DNA of 38,524 nucleotides from Labilithrix sp. (GTDB lineage: Bacteria > Myxococcota_A > Polyangia > Polyangiales > Polyangiaceae). Positions 4,473 to 11,261 of this stretch are shown here, one piece after another (position 1 is the stretch's first letter; every line of letters starts with the position of its first letter). Both the position numbers and the translations under genes were made by a program. The DNA lies in the NCBI GenBank assembly GCA_028287065.1, contig JAQBQJ010000172.1:1-38524 (forward strand), in the 5' to 3' direction. A model generated the notes under the pieces. That model was not told where the DNA came from, ran no database searches, and saw only the letters and a list, made by a program, of their open reading frames with translations.

Positions 4473-4970
4473 TCACTGCGCGCAGTTCCTCAACCCGAAC
4501 GCGGTGGGGTTCGCGTCGAACGCGTCCGGCGTGTTGAGCATCACGCCCGGCGTCCAACCGAGGTTCGGGTTGTCGTCGCCCTGCGTGTAGTACCAGGTCG
4601 TGTTGCCGCCGGCGTGGAGCTCGCCGGTGCCCCAGCACAAGAAGTAGCTGGTCGTCGTGCGTAGCGTGTTGACGACCGTAGCGCTCTCTTTCGGCAGCGT
4701 GTGCAGGGGAGCGTTCACGCGGTTCGTGCAATGCAGCTTCGTATCGGCTCGCACCTCGCATGCGCTCGCGTCGCCCGCGGTCGCGTCCGCGACGCCCTTC
4801 CCGGCGGCTCCCGCGTCGAGCGCCGGCTCGATCGGAGCGGCGTCGCGATGATCGGCGGTCGCGGCATCCCCCGCGGCGTACGGGACCTCCTCGAGGTCGA
4901 CGAGCGCTGCGCACGACACGACGAGCATGCTCGCCGCGACGGCAAAGACGGCGCGAGCGCGCTTACGCAT
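4473..4970 (-). CDS. Small lipoprotein with C-terminal cysteine-rich SH3-like domain
   Basis: From ATG 4970 the product is 165 residues. It has a basic, hydrophobic signal ending in the lipobox VVSC (Cys20), a low-complexity Ala/Asp linker (about 30-68), and a domain of about 95 residues from Cys71 to the end. That domain is the same as the C-termini of the peptidase at 9074 and the lysozyme at 10491: four cysteines at matching places, LRTT.S.F.CWGTGE, HAGGNTTWY, GDDN and GW.P. The fold resembles bacterial SH3 domains, which often bind peptidoglycan, so a wall-associated or scaffold role is plausible but not shown. Here the domain has no enzyme partner. The frame extends upstream to 5081, but that part lacks a signal sequence and reads into the divergent promoter region. 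Confidence 0.8.
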   Translation of the reverse strand: MRKRARAVFAVAASMLVVSCAALVDLEEVPYAAGDAATADHRDAAPIEPALDAGAAGKGVADATAGDASACEVRADTKLHCTNRVNAPLHTLPKESATVVNTLRTTTSYFLCWGTGELHAGGNTTWYYTQGDDNPNLGWTPGVMLNTPDAFDANPTAFGLRNCAQ

Positions 4971-5124
4971 CGCCTTCGAGGATATCACCCATGCGGCAAC
5001 GGGCACGCCGCGCGCACACCCACCTGAGGACTGCAGCCCGCAGGTATCCGCGCGCGCGTCGGCGGAAAGAATCAGTGCCAACGGACCGGCTGGCCGGGCG
5101 CGCCGACGCGGCTATCGTGACCAT

Positions 5125-6498
5125 GTGGACGCGGGCCTCGTCATCGCCGGCAAGTACCACGTGGTCGACCTCATCGCGCAAGGCGGGATGGGCGCCGTGT
5201 ACGACGCCATCCATGCGAAGACCGGCCGGCGCGTCGCACTCAAGTTGATCAAGGAACGCGGCCTCTCGGGCGGCCCCGCCGCGCTCCGTCGTTTCGAGCG
5301 CGAAGCGAAGGCGGCCGGCTCGATCGACTCGCTCCACGTCGTGCAGGTGCTCGACGCCGGTGAGGACGAGGCGAGCGGCATGCCCTTCTTCGTCATGGAG
5401 TACCTCCAGGGCGAGGACCTGCGCGCCGTCATCGGGCGCGGGCCCGTACCGCCCCAGCAGGCGATCGCAATCGCCGTGCACGTGTGCCTCGGACTGATCA
5501 AAGCGCACGAGGCGGACATCATCCATCGCGATCTCAAGCCGGCAAACCTGTTCCTCGCCGAGGCAGACGGCGCGACGCGCGTCGTGAAGATCCTCGACTT
5601 CGGCATCGCGAAGCTCCTCCACGAGCAGAACGACACCGCGGAGCTCACGATCACGGGGGACATGGTCGGCTCGCCTCCGTACATGTCCCCGGAGCAGCTC
5701 GCTTCGCCACGCGACGTCGATCACCGCTCCGATCTGTGGTCGCTCGGCGTCGTGCTCTACGAGATGCTCTGCGGTGCATCGCCCACGGCGGGCATCAGCG
5801 CGATCGGCGCACGTGTGTACTCGATCTGCCACGTGCCGGCGACGCCGCTCACCGAGCGCATGCCCGGCATCTCCCCGGAGCTGGCGGCCGTCGTGCATCG
5901 CGCGCTCGCGATCGATCCCGCGGCGAGGTTCGCGTCCGCAGCCGACATGCTCGACGCGCTCCACGCGCTACAGCCGGACGGCGCATCGCTGCCTTCGATC
6001 GACGCAGCGCCCACGCTGGTCCGCGGCTCGCAGTTCTCGTCCACGGCGCCCACCGCTCTCGAGCTCGCGCCCACCGAGCACGATCGAGCGAGCGACGCTT
6101 CGCGCTGGGCTCCACGCGCGCGCTGGCGTGCTGCCGCCGCGACGTTCGCGCTCTTCGCGGCCGCCGGTGTGTACGCAACGCGCGAAGCTCCACGTCCCGA
6201 GCTCCCGCCCGCGCTCGCGCTCGCGCCGGCGCTCGCGAACGCCGGCGCGCAGCCGGAAGAAGCGACCGCGGTCGCTTCGCGATCGCTCGATCCACGCGCC
6301 ACGAGCACGAGAGAGACGCGCGATGCCGGCGCCCAAGTGGAGAGCGCACCGAAGGCCGCGCCCGTCGTGCGATCGCCGACCGGCGGCGCCCGCAAGCTCG
6401 CCGGTCACACGCGAACGAAGGCGGTCGAAGCCGACGGCGGCACGACCATCGCGCCGCGGATCGTGCCGGTCAAGACGACCGGGCGCGAACACCTCTGA
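5125..6498 (+). CDS. Serine/threonine protein kinase with single transmembrane segment
   Basis: From GTG 5125 the product is 457 residues and begins DAGLVIAGKYHV, the usual start of bacterial Hanks-type kinases. Visible motifs are the glycine loop AQGGMGAVY (18-26), the ATP-binding Lys40 in VALKLI, the catalytic loop HRDLKPAN (134-141), DFG at 158-160 and SPPYMSPEQL in the activation segment. The kinase domain ends near residue 275. A low-complexity linker, one membrane helix (about 335-352) and an Ala/Arg-rich extracytoplasmic tail follow. The frame stays open upstream to 4927 but without kinase-like sequence, so the GTG is chosen. It phosphorylates Ser/Thr on unknown partners; the FHA protein at 7530-8741, which should bind phosphothreonine, is a natural candidate (inference). 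Confidence 0.94.
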   Translation: MDAGLVIAGKYHVVDLIAQGGMGAVYDAIHAKTGRRVALKLIKERGLSGGPAALRRFEREAKAAGSIDSLHVVQVLDAGEDEASGMPFFVMEYLQGEDLRAVIGRGPVPPQQAIAIAVHVCLGLIKAHEADIIHRDLKPANLFLAEADGATRVVKILDFGIAKLLHEQNDTAELTITGDMVGSPPYMSPEQLASPRDVDHRSDLWSLGVVLYEMLCGASPTAGISAIGARVYSICHVPATPLTERMPGISPELAAVVHRALAIDPAARFASAADMLDALHALQPDGASLPSIDAAPTLVRGSQFSSTAPTALELAPTEHDRASDASRWAPRARWRAAAATFALFAAAGVYATREAPRPELPPALALAPALANAGAQPEEATAVASRSLDPRATSTRETRDAGAQVESAPKAAPVVRSPTGGARKLAGHTRTKAVEADGGTTIAPRIVPVKTTGREHL

Positions 6499-7529: not shown

Positions 7530-8741
7530 TCACTTCCGCGGGCGAGGGACACCGAAGCGTTCGAGCCGCGAAATCAGCGTTCCGCGCGAGATGCCGAGCG
7601 CCTTTGCGGCGCGGGTCTGGTTTCCGCTGCAGTGCCGCAAGGCCTCGAGGATGCGCCGGTGCTCGGCCTCGTCGACCACGGCGGACAGCGAGCCGCCGCT
7701 CGCGCCCGATGCGTGCGCGGCTCCGCCGAGATCGAAGTGAGCCGCCGTGAGCACCCTTCCCTTCCCGAGCAGCACCGCCTTCGACAGCACGTTCCGCAGC
7801 TCGCGCAGGTTGCCCGGCCACGTGTGCCGTGAGAGCGCCGACATCGCATCCGCGCTGAGGAGCATCCGCGGACGGCCGTGCGCGGTCGTGAGCTCCACGA
7901 GCAAGGCCTCGGCGAGCGTGCCGAGCTCGCCCACGCGCGCGCGAAGCGGAGGGACCACGACGGACACACCGGCGAGGCGATGGAACAGCGCGACGTCGAG
8001 CTCTCCCGACCCGGCAGCCGCGAACAGATCGCGCTGCGTGAGCGTCACCGTCCGCACGTGCGTCGCTTCGGCGGCGAGCGCCGTGCGGAGCGAGGTCTGC
8101 GCGGGCACGGACAGGAGCGAAGGCTCACGCACCACGAGCGTGCCGGCACGCGCGGCGCGGACCTCGTGCGCGATCTCGTCGGGGGTCGTCGCGGGGCTCG
8201 ATGCGAGCGTGACGAGCGCCGCGGACGATCGGCCGGAAGACGCATGCACGCGGGCCGCGATCCACGCCTTGCCGGAGCCGGGCTCGCCCACGAGCAGCAC
8301 CGCGACCTCGCTCTTCGCGATGCGCTCGATGGTCCTCTCGATCGAGGCGAGCCCTTCGCGCGACGCGCCGGTCGAAGCCAGGACGTCGCGGGCGGGATCG
8401 TGACCCGTGCGGATGACCAGCAGAGCGTCGCCGAGCTCGATCGGCGAGCCGGGCGCGACGAGCACGGCCTCTCCTCGTTTCAAGGTTCGCCCGGCGACGA
8501 CGGTGCCGTTGCGACTGCCGCAGTCGGCGATGGTCACGTGCGAGCCGAGCGTGAGCTTTGCGTGTGCTCGGGAGAGGGTGGGGTGGTCGACGACGACGTC
8601 GGCATCGCGCCCGCGCCCGATGACGACGGCTCCCGAGGGGGGCAGCTCGTGCTCCCTCGCCGACGTGCCGCACAAGACGAGGAGCATACGACCCCGTGAT
8701 GCGCGTCCTCCTTCTCTCGTCGCGGTCTCGCTCTCCGTCAT
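7530..8741 (-). CDS. FHA domain / degenerate sigma-54 AAA+ / Fis-type HTH regulator
   Basis: The 403-residue protein has an FHA domain (about 39-110) with IGR, LSRAH and GSRNGT, the phosphothreonine-binding residues. A Walker A (GEPGSGK, 152-158) opens an AAA+ core. Walker B, normally GTLFLDE-like, reads GTLVVREP (200-207), so the acidic pair is lost. The GAFTGA loop that contacts sigma-54 is absent, and the stretch between Walker A and B is about 30 residues short. The later elements FHRLAGV, PPLRAR and WPGNLREL (308-315) are kept, as is the C-terminal Fis-type helix-turn-helix (NQTRAAKALGISRGTLISRL, 374-393). It probably binds DNA and phosphoproteins but should not activate sigma-54 in the usual ATP-driven way. 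ATG 8741 is preferred; the frame is open upstream without domain sequence. Confidence 0.9.
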   Translation of the reverse strand: MTESETATREGGRASRGRMLLVLCGTSAREHELPPSGAVVIGRGRDADVVVDHPTLSRAHAKLTLGSHVTIADCGSRNGTVVAGRTLKRGEAVLVAPGSPIELGDALLVIRTGHDPARDVLASTGASREGLASIERTIERIAKSEVAVLLVGEPGSGKAWIAARVHASSGRSSAALVTLASSPATTPDEIAHEVRAARAGTLVVREPSLLSVPAQTSLRTALAAEATHVRTVTLTQRDLFAAAGSGELDVALFHRLAGVSVVVPPLRARVGELGTLAEALLVELTTAHGRPRMLLSADAMSALSRHTWPGNLRELRNVLSKAVLLGKGRVLTAAHFDLGGAAHASGASGGSLSAVVDEAEHRRILEALRHCSGNQTRAAKALGISRGTLISRLERFGVPRPRK

Positions 8742-9073
8742 GCTCCGCCCGTGAGGAGTAGCCCGTTCGAGCTCGGTTGGCACGCACGCCGTGAGCGCCG
8801 ACGACGACTTGTACGGATCTCTGAACAATTCGTTCGACCCTTTGCGCAACGGTGAGTGGTCATGGATCCCGACACCCCGAGGCGCGCGAGCAGCGACGCG
8901 GGGGGCGCGCAGGCGTGCGTGCGCAGGCGGAAGCAACGCACGTTCGTGCAGGTCCGGCATGGCGTGAGCGAGCGGCACTCGCGTTGCAGTGGGTGCCGCG
9001 ACGCGAGCCCGTGATCGAACGCAGTCCTTCGTTCTGCTTCGTGTCGCTCCACCCCCACGACCTCAGAGGCCTC
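8742..9073. other. Divergent intergenic region, 332 bases
   Basis: It separates the FHA regulator (minus) from the C39 peptidase gene (plus) and must hold both promoters. The least G+C-rich part is about 8808-8850. I see no convincing -35/-10 pair. A ribosome-binding-like AGAGG lies just before ATG 9074. No coding bias is evident. Confidence 0.6.
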
Positions 9074-10456
9074 ATGTCCAACCTCGCTCGCTCGTCACGA
9101 CTCGGTGTGCTCGTCTTCACGCTCGCCGCTGCTTCCGCGTGCACCGCGGACGCGATCGACGCACCCGAGAACGCCGATGTCGCCGAGTCGGCAGCGACCG
9201 CGGTGGTCCCGCTCGATGTCCCGTTCGTCGCGCAGAACCCGGAGCTCCCGCGCGGATGCGAGGTCACGTCGCTCACGATGCTCCTTCGTGATGCGGGCGT
9301 GACCATCGACAAGATGACGCTCGCGCAGCAGGTGAAGAAGGTCCCCTATCTCGCGAACGGCCTGCACGGCGATCCGTACGAGGGCTTCGTCGGGAACATG
9401 ACGACGTTCAGCCAGCAGGGCTACGGGGTCTATCACGGGCCGATCAAGGCGCTTGCCGAGCAGTACCTGCCGGGCCGTATCGCCGATGTCACCGGGACGT
9501 CGTTCGACGACCTCCTCATGCAGCACGTCGCGCGCAGCCGGCCGGTGTGGATCGTCACCAACGCGACGTTCAAGCCGCTCACGGCCTCGGCGTTCCAGAC
9601 CTGGCAGACGAAGTCGGGACCGGCGCGCATCACGTGGCATGAGCACTCGGTCGTGATCACCGGCTTCGACGCCACGACCGTCACCATCAACGATCCCCTC
9701 GACGCCCACGGCAAGAACAAGAAGCTCGCGCGCGCCGACTTCCGCGTCGCGTGGGAGCAGATGGGCAAGCAGGCGATCACGTACCTCCCGGCCGCGACGG
9801 CGAACGCCCCCGCGCTGCTGCAGCAGTCCGTCGCGAGCTGCACGACGAAGTCGATCACGCAGGTCCCGACGACGCGCACGGCCCCGCAGCTCGCTCCGTT
9901 CGATCTCACGGCCTCGCATGCGATCGGGTCCACCGAGCTTCGCCCCGGCGACGCGCTCAACAGGAACGTGGCGGGCTCGGCGCGACACGTCGCGTTCTTC
10001 GCCGGCTGGGCCGATGCGGCGCACTCGGCCGCGTGCGTCGTGCAGCCCGGCCAAGCGACCACGACGGCGACCGCGCAGGCGTACCCCGCGAGCGCTCTGC
10101 GGGAGCTCACGCCGATCCGCTTCGAGAATTCGCCCGCCGGATGGCGTAGCGCGCCGATCGGCATCGATTGCAGTGTGCACGCAGATGGAAAGCTCTATTG
10201 CACGAACACGCCGGGCGCGGCGATGCACGCGGCGATGACCGCGTCCTCCGCGACGGTCAACCATCTCCGCACGACGTACAGCTGGTTCGAGTGCTGGGGC
10301 ACCGGCGAGCACCACGCGGGCGGCAACACGACCTGGTACCGGACGACGGGCGACGACAACCCGTCGAAGGGCTGGATCCCCGCCGTCGACCTGAGCACGC
10401 AGCCCGACTTCGACGCGGATCCCAGCGCGCGCGGGCTCGCGAAGTGCGCCGAATGA
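9074..10456 (+). CDS. Secreted C39-like cysteine peptidase with SH3-like C-terminal domain
   Basis: The 460-residue product starts at ATG 9074 with a signal sequence ending near Cys23 (SAC, a weak lipobox). Residues about 44-240 match the Peptidase_C39_2 family: V.FVAQ opening, Cys62 in RGCEVTSL, His191 in WHEHSVVITG and Asp207 in INDPL as the likely triad. Residues about 280-350 (LRPGDALNR, then HVAFFAGWADAAH) look like the C-terminal half of an NlpC/P60-type amidase, but the half carrying its Cys is missing. The last 95 residues (from Asp365) are the four-cysteine SH3-like domain shared with the proteins at 4473 and 10491. The natural reading is a secreted peptidase aimed at peptide bonds in cell walls, or another extracellular protein. 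It is 34 bases upstream of the lysozyme gene, probably cotranscribed. Confidence 0.85.
   Translation: MSNLARSSRLGVLVFTLAAASACTADAIDAPENADVAESAATAVVPLDVPFVAQNPELPRGCEVTSLTMLLRDAGVTIDKMTLAQQVKKVPYLANGLHGDPYEGFVGNMTTFSQQGYGVYHGPIKALAEQYLPGRIADVTGTSFDDLLMQHVARSRPVWIVTNATFKPLTASAFQTWQTKSGPARITWHEHSVVITGFDATTVTINDPLDAHGKNKKLARADFRVAWEQMGKQAITYLPAATANAPALLQQSVASCTTKSITQVPTTRTAPQLAPFDLTASHAIGSTELRPGDALNRNVAGSARHVAFFAGWADAAHSAACVVQPGQATTTATAQAYPASALRELTPIRFENSPAGWRSAPIGIDCSVHADGKLYCTNTPGAAMHAAMTASSATVNHLRTTYSWFECWGTGEHHAGGNTTWYRTTGDDNPSKGWIPAVDLSTQPDFDADPSARGLAKCAE
10166..10453 (+). other. SH3-like domain copy 2 (coding)
   Basis: Domain-level annotation. Residues 365-460 of the C39 peptidase align without long gaps to residues 161-256 of the lysozyme and 71-165 of the lipoprotein at 4473-4970. 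All have CWGTGE, HAGGNTTWY, GDDN and four matching cysteines. Confidence 0.85.
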
Positions 10457-10490
10457 CGAGTCCTCACGAAACGACGATGTGGAGGTCACG

Positions 10491-11261
10491 ATGAAGCTTT
10501 CGATGTCCGTGCTCGGTACGCTCGCCACATGCTTGCTCGCAGCCGGTTGCGCGAGCGAGCTCGAACCTGCGGATGAGGGAGACGTCGAGCACACGGAAGA
10601 TCCGTTGCTCGCAGGACGCCGCCTGAGCGAAGCCGAGACCGCGCAGCTCCTTCGCAACGCCGGTTTTCCCGAGTCGGCGGTCGGTCCGATGGTCTGCACC
10701 GCGAAGTACGAGTCGTCGTTCTACGAGCGCGCGACCAACAGCAACACCAACGGCTCGATCGATCGCGGGCTCTTCCAGATCAACAGCATTCACGTCGGAA
10801 CGCCGGGATGTCCGAGCGCGGCCGGACTCTTCGACGCGGCGCAGAACACGCACTGCGCGCTGAAGGTCTACCAGTCGCAAGGGATCAACGCCTGGTACGG
10901 CTACCAGCATCATCGCGCCGAGTGCGGCGGATATCGCGCTCCGGGCGGCGGCGGAGGTGGCGGTGGCGGCGGCGATTGCTCGGTGCACGCCGACGGCAGG
11001 CTCTATTGCGACGACCGCGCCGGCACCCCGATGCATGCCGCGACCAACGGCGGCAGCCCCGTCGTCAACACGCTCCGCACAGCCCACAGCTGGTTCGACT
11101 GCTGGGGCACCGGCGAGCGCCACGCGGGCGGAAACACGACCTGGTACCACACGCTCGGCGACGACAACGGCAACTACGGTTGGGTCCCCGGTGTCGCCCT
11201 CAAGACGCCCGACGCATTCGACGCCAACCCCGGCGCGCACGGCCTGAAGCGCTGTCCCTGA
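10491..11261 (+). CDS. Lipoprotein c-type (GH22-like) lysozyme with SH3-like domain
   Basis: The start ATG 10491 follows a strong ribosome-binding site GGAGGT (10481-10486). The 256-residue product has a lipoprotein-type signal (Cys20 in LLAAGC). Residues about 44-147 align with animal c-type lysozyme: VCTAKYESSF matches VCAAKFESNF of hen lysozyme, ATNSNTNGSIDRGLFQINS matches ATNRNTDGSTDYGILQINS, and HCALK...GINAW matches NCAKK...GMNAW. Glu74 and Asp91 are 17 residues apart, as are Glu35 and Asp52 in the hen enzyme, and Cys69, Cys107, Cys122 and Cys145 fall near disulfide positions. A ten-glycine linker (152-161) leads to the SH3-like domain (161-256). It should cut the MurNAc-GlcNAc backbone of peptidoglycan outside the cytoplasm. 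Confidence 0.9.
   Translation: MKLSMSVLGTLATCLLAAGCASELEPADEGDVEHTEDPLLAGRRLSEAETAQLLRNAGFPESAVGPMVCTAKYESSFYERATNSNTNGSIDRGLFQINSIHVGTPGCPSAAGLFDAAQNTHCALKVYQSQGINAWYGYQHHRAECGGYRAPGGGGGGGGGGDCSVHADGRLYCDDRAGTPMHAATNGGSPVVNTLRTAHSWFDCWGTGERHAGGNTTWYHTLGDDNGNYGWVPGVALKTPDAFDANPGAHGLKRCP

Follow-up and report, generated by a model that had tools for sequence, protein, structure and literature searches.

The window, which is the whole 38,524-nt stretch of Labilithrix sp. DNA analysed here (contig JAQBQJ010000172.1), carries an open reading frame at 10491-11261 on the forward strand whose translation gave a product of 256 amino acids (GC3 0.84). From this translation and from Pfam, the product was predicted to be a lipoprotein in which a GH22 (c-type lysozyme) domain is followed by a ten-glycine linker and a C-terminal module. 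A likely ribosome-binding site, GGAGG (10481-10485), was read 5 bases upstream of the ATG, and a scan near the lysozyme gene found no promoter or terminator. When the lipobox rule and the +2 rule for bacterial lipoproteins were applied, a signal peptide (10491-10550) was recognised, ending in the lipobox LLAAG-Cys20 and with Ala at +2. The signal peptide, Cys20 and the glycine run (residues 152-161; 10944-10973) could all be read directly, confirming the original prediction of a lipoprotein with a ten-glycine linker. The GH22-like domain occupies residues 44-147 (10620-10931), and the C-terminal module (10974-11258) was common to other wall-lytic enzymes of the window's family, as revealed by module searches and Pfam scans.

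The gene upstream (9074-10456, forward strand; scanned as an open reading frame from 9068) ends 34 bases before the lysozyme gene and its product, likewise a predicted lipoprotein, combines a C39-like peptidase domain (PF13529, 117.8 bits) with the same module; this copy (10163-10453) was 61% identical to the module of the lysozyme. The two genes are likely co-transcribed. Another predicted lipoprotein, encoded at 4473-4970 on the reverse strand, had the same module (63% identity in the module alignment) without a recognised catalytic domain; it is barely more than the module itself and might compete for, or act as a decoy at, the site that the module binds. Searching the window's genome (577 contigs, completeness 72%) with P0001 returned three places, all inside the window. 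The window further encodes a serine/threonine kinase at 4927-6498 on the forward strand (PF00069, 155.9 bits) and, at 7533-8756 on the reverse strand, a protein with FHA, sigma-54 activator-type ATPase and Fis-type helix-turn-helix domains. Around relatives of the lysozyme, six window proteins were searched by tblastn (1e-8) against 26 stretches (L009-L019 and L122-L136, several of them the same place), and no match to the C39 gene was obtained; a conserved lysozyme/C39 gene pair was therefore rejected, and the pairing may be local.

For the C-terminal domain, the putative SH3-like part of the original prediction, sequence comparison gave no Pfam family at E values up to 1 and no hit to a PDB sequence with E below 0.5. 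The module was carried by 6 of the 108 family genomes, the window's own included, at up to nine places per genome, and one protein type had three copies of it in tandem. In L098-L121 (G429-G431), two or three tandem copies stood behind PF08924 domains. Nine module proteins beyond the window's own lysozyme and C39 proteins were scanned for partner domains, yielding PF08924 glycoside-hydrolase-like domains (three proteins), a C39-like domain (one), an M23 domain (one), CHAP domains below the cut-off (two) and no recognised partner (two, including the window's 4473-4970 protein). L101, one of the two CHAP-type module frames, had a kinase domain in the same open frame. Because the same tail was found on several wall-lytic domains, its presence suggests that it may target the cell wall; several other lysozymes of the group have different tails. 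No relatives of the module were confirmed in viral contigs.

Residues 51-141 of the window protein matched PF00062 at 40.8 bits (E 3.2e-10; Pfam cut-off 27), a likeness far beyond chance. SLT_3 (PF18896) scored 31.6 bits, over its cut-off of 27 and under the PF00062 score, and SLT (GH23 lytic transglycosylase, PF01464) reached 18.5 bits, under its cut-off of 21.3, ruling out a GH23 lytic transglycosylase on score. A weak match to IagB (NF011856; 17.9 bits against a curated cut-off of 208) was the sole one in NCBIfam. The best PDB chains by sequence were c-type lysozymes, led by 2rsc (E 2.8e-11), which we take to be silkworm lysozyme. An animal-like c-type lysozyme (GH22) in a bacterium had been predicted, to be checked by HMM scores against SLT and other bacterial lysozyme families, and PF00062 outscored both SLT_3 and SLT. 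Judged by its sequence, the window gene is a real, uncommon bacterial c-type lysozyme gene with a predicted activity.

Residue conservation was counted in the 55-row alignment of the second tree described below, comprising seven animal rows, 17 M rows (of which 15 are Myxococcota and two Silvanigrellales), 8 B rows (drawn from the Silvanigrellales MAG's phylum), 19 SLT_3-type rows (16 viral; 18 checked with Pfam) and 4 SLT rows; M and B together make up the 25 bacterial GH22 rows. Glu74 (10710-10712), the equivalent of hen Glu35, was kept in all 55 rows and thus in 25/25 bacterial GH22 rows. Asp91 (10761-10763), equivalent to hen Asp52, was kept in 54 rows and in 24 of the 25 bacterial ones, the exception being L005, a paralogue in the window's genus in which Lys replaces the second catalytic acid and which is perhaps non-catalytic. 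The predicted alignment of this pair with hen lysozyme at the same 17-residue spacing was upheld. Its value as a GH22 marker was not, since the pair was also present in 19/19 SLT_3-type and 4/4 other SLT-type rows and does not tell GH22 from SLT_3.

Cysteines gave a clearer separation. The columns of Cys69 (10695-10697; hen Cys30), Cys107 (10809-10811; hen Cys76) and Cys122 (10854-10856; hen Cys94) held cysteine in 7/7 animal, 17/17 M and 8/8 B rows, compared with 0, 0 and 1 of the 19 SLT_3-type rows and 0, 2 and 0 of the four SLT rows, respectively. The fourth cysteine of the window protein, Cys145 (10923-10925), sits three residues past the hen Cys115 column and probably pairs with Cys69, taking the role of hen Cys115. 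Cysteine was found in this stretch in 16/17 M rows and 8/8 B rows (24/25 bacterial GH22 rows), and in none of the 23 SLT_3-type and SLT rows; the row without it was L076 (G413), a diverged relative in the window's genus. Hen lysozyme has disulfides 6-127, 30-115, 64-80 and 76-94. The columns of hen Cys6, Cys64, Cys80 and Cys127 were without cysteine in all 25 bacterial GH22 rows, indicating that at most two of the four hen disulfides can be conserved. The cysteines therefore separate GH22 from SLT_3 better than the Glu/Asp pair does. Two further predicted features stood in part: the match across the length of hen lysozyme held over residues 51-141 and fell somewhat short of full, Cys6, 64, 80 and 127 lacking counterparts; and cysteines did lie near disulfide positions, with Cys69, Cys107 and Cys122 aligned and Cys145 close by, providing residues for two of four disulfides. 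For this reason the domain is best filed as a bacterial branch of GH22c/PF00062 rather than as a canonical animal-type member. In the SLT_3-type loci L077 and L078, from 13 Mb family genomes, the stretch ahead of the domain (LAGTHLSDVQIA and LDGTHLSDVQIA) resembles that of the four-cysteine lysozymes; the Pfam scan covered L077.

With direct support from the family match, the catalytic residues, the cysteine pattern, the shared module and the gene order, we propose that the protein is probably an outer-membrane lipoprotein muramidase of c-type mechanism with a wall-binding tail, which works beside a C39-type peptidase and probably targets the wall of prey or competitors. The enzyme would hydrolyse the MurNAc-GlcNAc bond of peptidoglycan by the retaining mechanism of c-type lysozymes, with Glu74 as the general acid and Asp91 as the second catalytic acid, and the two lobes would be held by disulfides 69-145 and 107-122. 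Through its lipid anchor the enzyme would stay on the cell envelope, the glycine linker would allow the catalytic domain to reach outward, and the C-terminal module would bind the cell wall, where the lysozyme would act beside the C39-type peptidase from the upstream gene. The likeliest target would be the wall of prey or competing bacteria; myxobacteria are established predators. Some Oligoflexia may be predators as well (PMC10385382). No MliC-type inhibitor was found in the window's genome (completeness 72%).

The same enzyme could act on the cell's own periplasmic wall, in remodelling, envelope assembly or fruiting and spore formation, and not on prey. We consider this somewhat unlikely, although Ala at +2 is compatible with a lipoprotein that faces the periplasm and many muramidases are autolysins. 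In the window's family, A1 matched 14 of 108 genomes and 6 of 48 genera. Two of the 14 genomes (G430 and G431, of one genus) gave weak matches, and the one scanned, L077, was SLT_3-type and had no listed PF00062 match; once these genomes were dropped, close relatives were found in 12 of the 108 family genomes and in 5 genera, the window's own included. Such a patchy spread, together with C-terminal parts that differ among the relatives, argues against a housekeeping role.

It is unlikely that the domain is instead an SLT_3-type bacterial or phage lysozyme-like domain, or a lytic transglycosylase, to which the GH22 label was attached by a profile cutting through a continuum. The shared Glu/Asp pair and the SLT_3 score of the window protein, itself over the cut-off, speak for such a continuum, and so does part of the scan of relatives. 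PF00062 was the best-scoring family in 10/10 relatives scanned from Myxococcota or the Silvanigrellales MAG, as in the window protein, whereas SLT_3 outscored it in 10/10 phage or other bacterial proteins, three of which (L028, L020 and L025) nonetheless exceeded the PF00062 cut-off. L025, from a Nitrospirae MAG, reached 31.3 bits with PF00062, but SLT_3 (49.4 bits) was the better fit. In a further 10 viral proteins SLT_3 was always higher and none passed the PF00062 cut-off. Among eight relatives from the Silvanigrellales MAG's phylum, PF00062 scored higher in six and SLT_3 in two (L094 and L089). All 18 Pfam-scanned SLT_3-type tree rows scored higher with SLT_3 than with PF00062, and cysteines at hen positions 30, 76 and 94, present throughout the bacterial and animal GH22 rows, occurred in 0, 0 and 1 of the 19 SLT_3-type rows, both of which argue against such a reading.

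Profile-profile comparison placed the bacterial GH22 group between SLT_3 and the animal enzymes, slightly nearer SLT_3. The profile A6, made from 15 of the 25 bacterial GH22 rows without L005 (second acid lost) and L076 (fourth cysteine absent), matched A7 (11 SLT_3-type domains) with E 4e-36 (score 196) and A5 (six animal lysozymes) with E 1.2e-31 (score 174); A7 matched A5 with E 9.6e-21 (score 116). A profile of eleven phage-type SLT_3 domains also matched PDB c-type lysozymes, with E 3.8e-14. The nearness of A6 to A7 is a further point for a continuum, and the trees, which split the two groups, are a point against it. In the first tree (53 rows, made before the B rows were added and with 23 of 37 viral loci), M and animal rows fell on one side of a branch with support of 92/77 and the animals alone had 100/99; the groupings M+P, A+S and A+P, among them M or animal rows placed with the phage rows, gave p values of 0.0545, 0.0674 and 0.0551 and were not rejected at 0.05. 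For the second tree (55 rows), the 8 B rows were added and the long-branch L020, L022, L048, L051, L059 and L060 removed; L095 (interrupted domain), L091, L093, the fragment L019/L082 and identical copies were not included. The bacterial and animal GH22 rows then shared a branch supported by 97/99, with animals at 100/100, so the bacterial relatives joined animal GH22 in the tree that had been suggested as a check; the group examined here and in the AU test was named after the first tree's result was visible. The trees used 116 columns and seven animal sequences, all c-type. With all cysteines masked the joint branch persisted at SH-aLRT 91, short of the 95 that the tool takes as its mark; under LG+G4 with 48 rows (fewer outgroup rows) it reached 99. 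The best tree put the animals inside the bacterial GH22 diversity, but a tree with all bacterial rows together was no worse (0.43 log units; p-AU 0.49), and a bacterial donor was not accepted on the grounds of nesting.

The spread of PF00062 in bacteria was narrow. Four phyla were surveyed, namely those of the window, the Silvanigrellales MAG, an Acidimicrobiales MAG and a Burkholderiales MAG. PF00062 was detected in 3 of 377 genomes in the phylum sample of the window, its own included, and A6 in 4 of 377, again with the window's genome; the fourth genome lies outside the family and its match was weak. Of 58 genomes in the Silvanigrellales MAG's phylum (NCBI: Bdellovibrionota), 11 matched PF00062 and 12 matched A6. 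PF00062 was seen in 0 of 296 genomes from the phylum of the Acidimicrobiales MAG and in 0 of 349 from that of the Burkholderiales MAG, a silence that is not proof of absence. These counts agree with the original remark that bacterial GH22 proteins are uncommon. Scanning of genome contigs returned 19 loci. Ten of them bear the title Labilithrix or Myxococcales, one of these being a fragment; the Silvanigrellales MAG accounts for two, and the other seven, which are weaker, lie elsewhere. The two Silvanigrellales loci had GC contents of 0.50-0.60 and 0.57-0.59, compared with about 0.70 for the window, and are thus unlikely to be stray myxobacterial contigs. So far, the four-cysteine bacterial branch has been found in the Myxococcota family to which the window belongs and in the Silvanigrellales MAG's phylum. 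L088 and L092, of the latter phylum, have an M23 peptidase domain fused ahead of the GH22-like domain.

Viral contigs gave zero matches when searched with the window protein alone. With A1, 37 viral loci were obtained, and in all 17 that were Pfam-scanned SLT_3 outscored PF00062; 16 of these passed the SLT_3 cut-off and L058 fell narrowly below. A phage origin of the window gene as such was rejected on these results. L028-L044, together with Rhodococcus and Gordonia phage records, are phage proteins with SLT_3-type domains; some of these proteins are annotated as tail protein or 'entry lysozyme'.

Acquisition of the gene from an animal by horizontal transfer, or contamination, is a quite improbable explanation taken as a whole. 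GH22 has been described as almost uniquely eukaryotic (PMC6403190), and animal-to-myxobacteria transfer has been proposed for g-type lysozymes (PMC12855814). Against this, the window gene has a bacterial signal peptide and lipobox, a GC3 of 0.84 and bacterial genes on its flanks; the relative L011 lies on a 437 kb myxobacterial contig; the lysozymes occur in two phyla; their profiles form a bridge to SLT_3; and cysteines at hen 6, 64, 80 and 127 were found in 0/25 bacterial rows. Recent transfer from an animal to a bacterium, or contamination, was judged unlikely on the lipobox, the GC3, the two phyla and the 437 kb contig; one old transfer is compatible with the data (p-AU 0.49). We tentatively entertain, as possible, the reading that the four-cysteine lysozymes of Myxococcota and the Silvanigrellales MAG's phylum are the bacterial stock, missing until now, from which the animal c-type enzyme came: an SLT_3-like bacterial or phage domain would have gained two disulfides, and the gene would have passed to an early animal, which added a loop and the other two disulfides. 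This bacterial-stock reading would parallel the comparable transfer scenario proposed for g-type lysozymes. That the protein is a non-catalytic lysozyme-like protein, comparable to alpha-lactalbumin, which binds or senses wall fragments, is very improbable, because both acids are kept in it and in 24/25 bacterial GH22 rows, even though L005 indicates that degenerate copies do arise in the family.

Some of these observations have precedents in the literature. The presence of GH22 in Labilithrix is already in print: a 2019 review (PMC6403190) lists recently found bacterial GH22 homologues in Labilithrix, Frankia and Enterococcus, whose function it describes as awaiting study; its GH22 row is without a structure and does not include the Silvanigrellales MAG's phylum. 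PF00062 in Labilithrix is common to that list and the window, and identical domain sequences occurred in genomes of the window's genus and in MAGs labelled Labilithrix (L010/L070 and L012/L069). Among the matches listed in a search of open-licence PMC papers, no title addressed how bacterial c-type lysozymes function or how they are related. New in the present analysis are the spread of the domain among bacteria, its cysteine pattern, the connection with SLT_3 and a C-terminal module that other wall-lytic enzymes also carry.

Compared with the animal c-type lysozymes (GH22c/PF00062; hen, human, trout, silkworm and housefly), the window protein has the common domain over most of its length, the Glu35/Asp52 pair, Cys30, Cys76 and Cys94, a cysteine near 115, the QIN motif and Trp108; it differs in lacking Cys6, 64, 80 and 127, in its shorter loop, and in having a lipid anchor and a C-terminal module. 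With the SLT_3 (PF18896) domains of phage tail proteins and bacteria it has in common the Glu/Asp pair, the motif N.NGS.D.GLFQIN and a strong profile-profile match, whereas those domains are without the cysteine set and score higher with SLT_3 than with PF00062. DslA of Bdellovibrio is likewise a bacterial lipoprotein lysozyme with two disulfides, from a predator (PMC7511926). It is, however, nearer GH23, with its second acid (Glu154) on another strand and Ser at the position equivalent to Asp52, and the published place of this acid ruled out kinship with the window protein (PMC7511926). The g-type (GH23) lysozymes of myxobacteria and animals are a parallel case of an animal-type lysozyme in a different GH family (PMC11576321, PMC12855814); the transfer proposed runs from bacteria to animals in the former and from animals to myxobacteria in the latter. 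A structure-based tree in PMC12855814 placed GH22 beside GH24 and GH46, two phage-type families.

As a lysozyme with two predicted disulfides and a putative wall-targeting tail, the window protein may be of practical interest for lysing bacteria. The part most worth pursuing is that the bacterial group falls next to the animal c-type enzymes and is linked by degrees to SLT_3. On the present alignments and trees, animal c-type lysozyme, the enzyme of egg white and tears, may have its closest bacterial kin in this small family, and a bacterial clade that has animal GH22 cysteines and grades into SLT_3 provides a concrete sequence bridge to the textbook enzyme.
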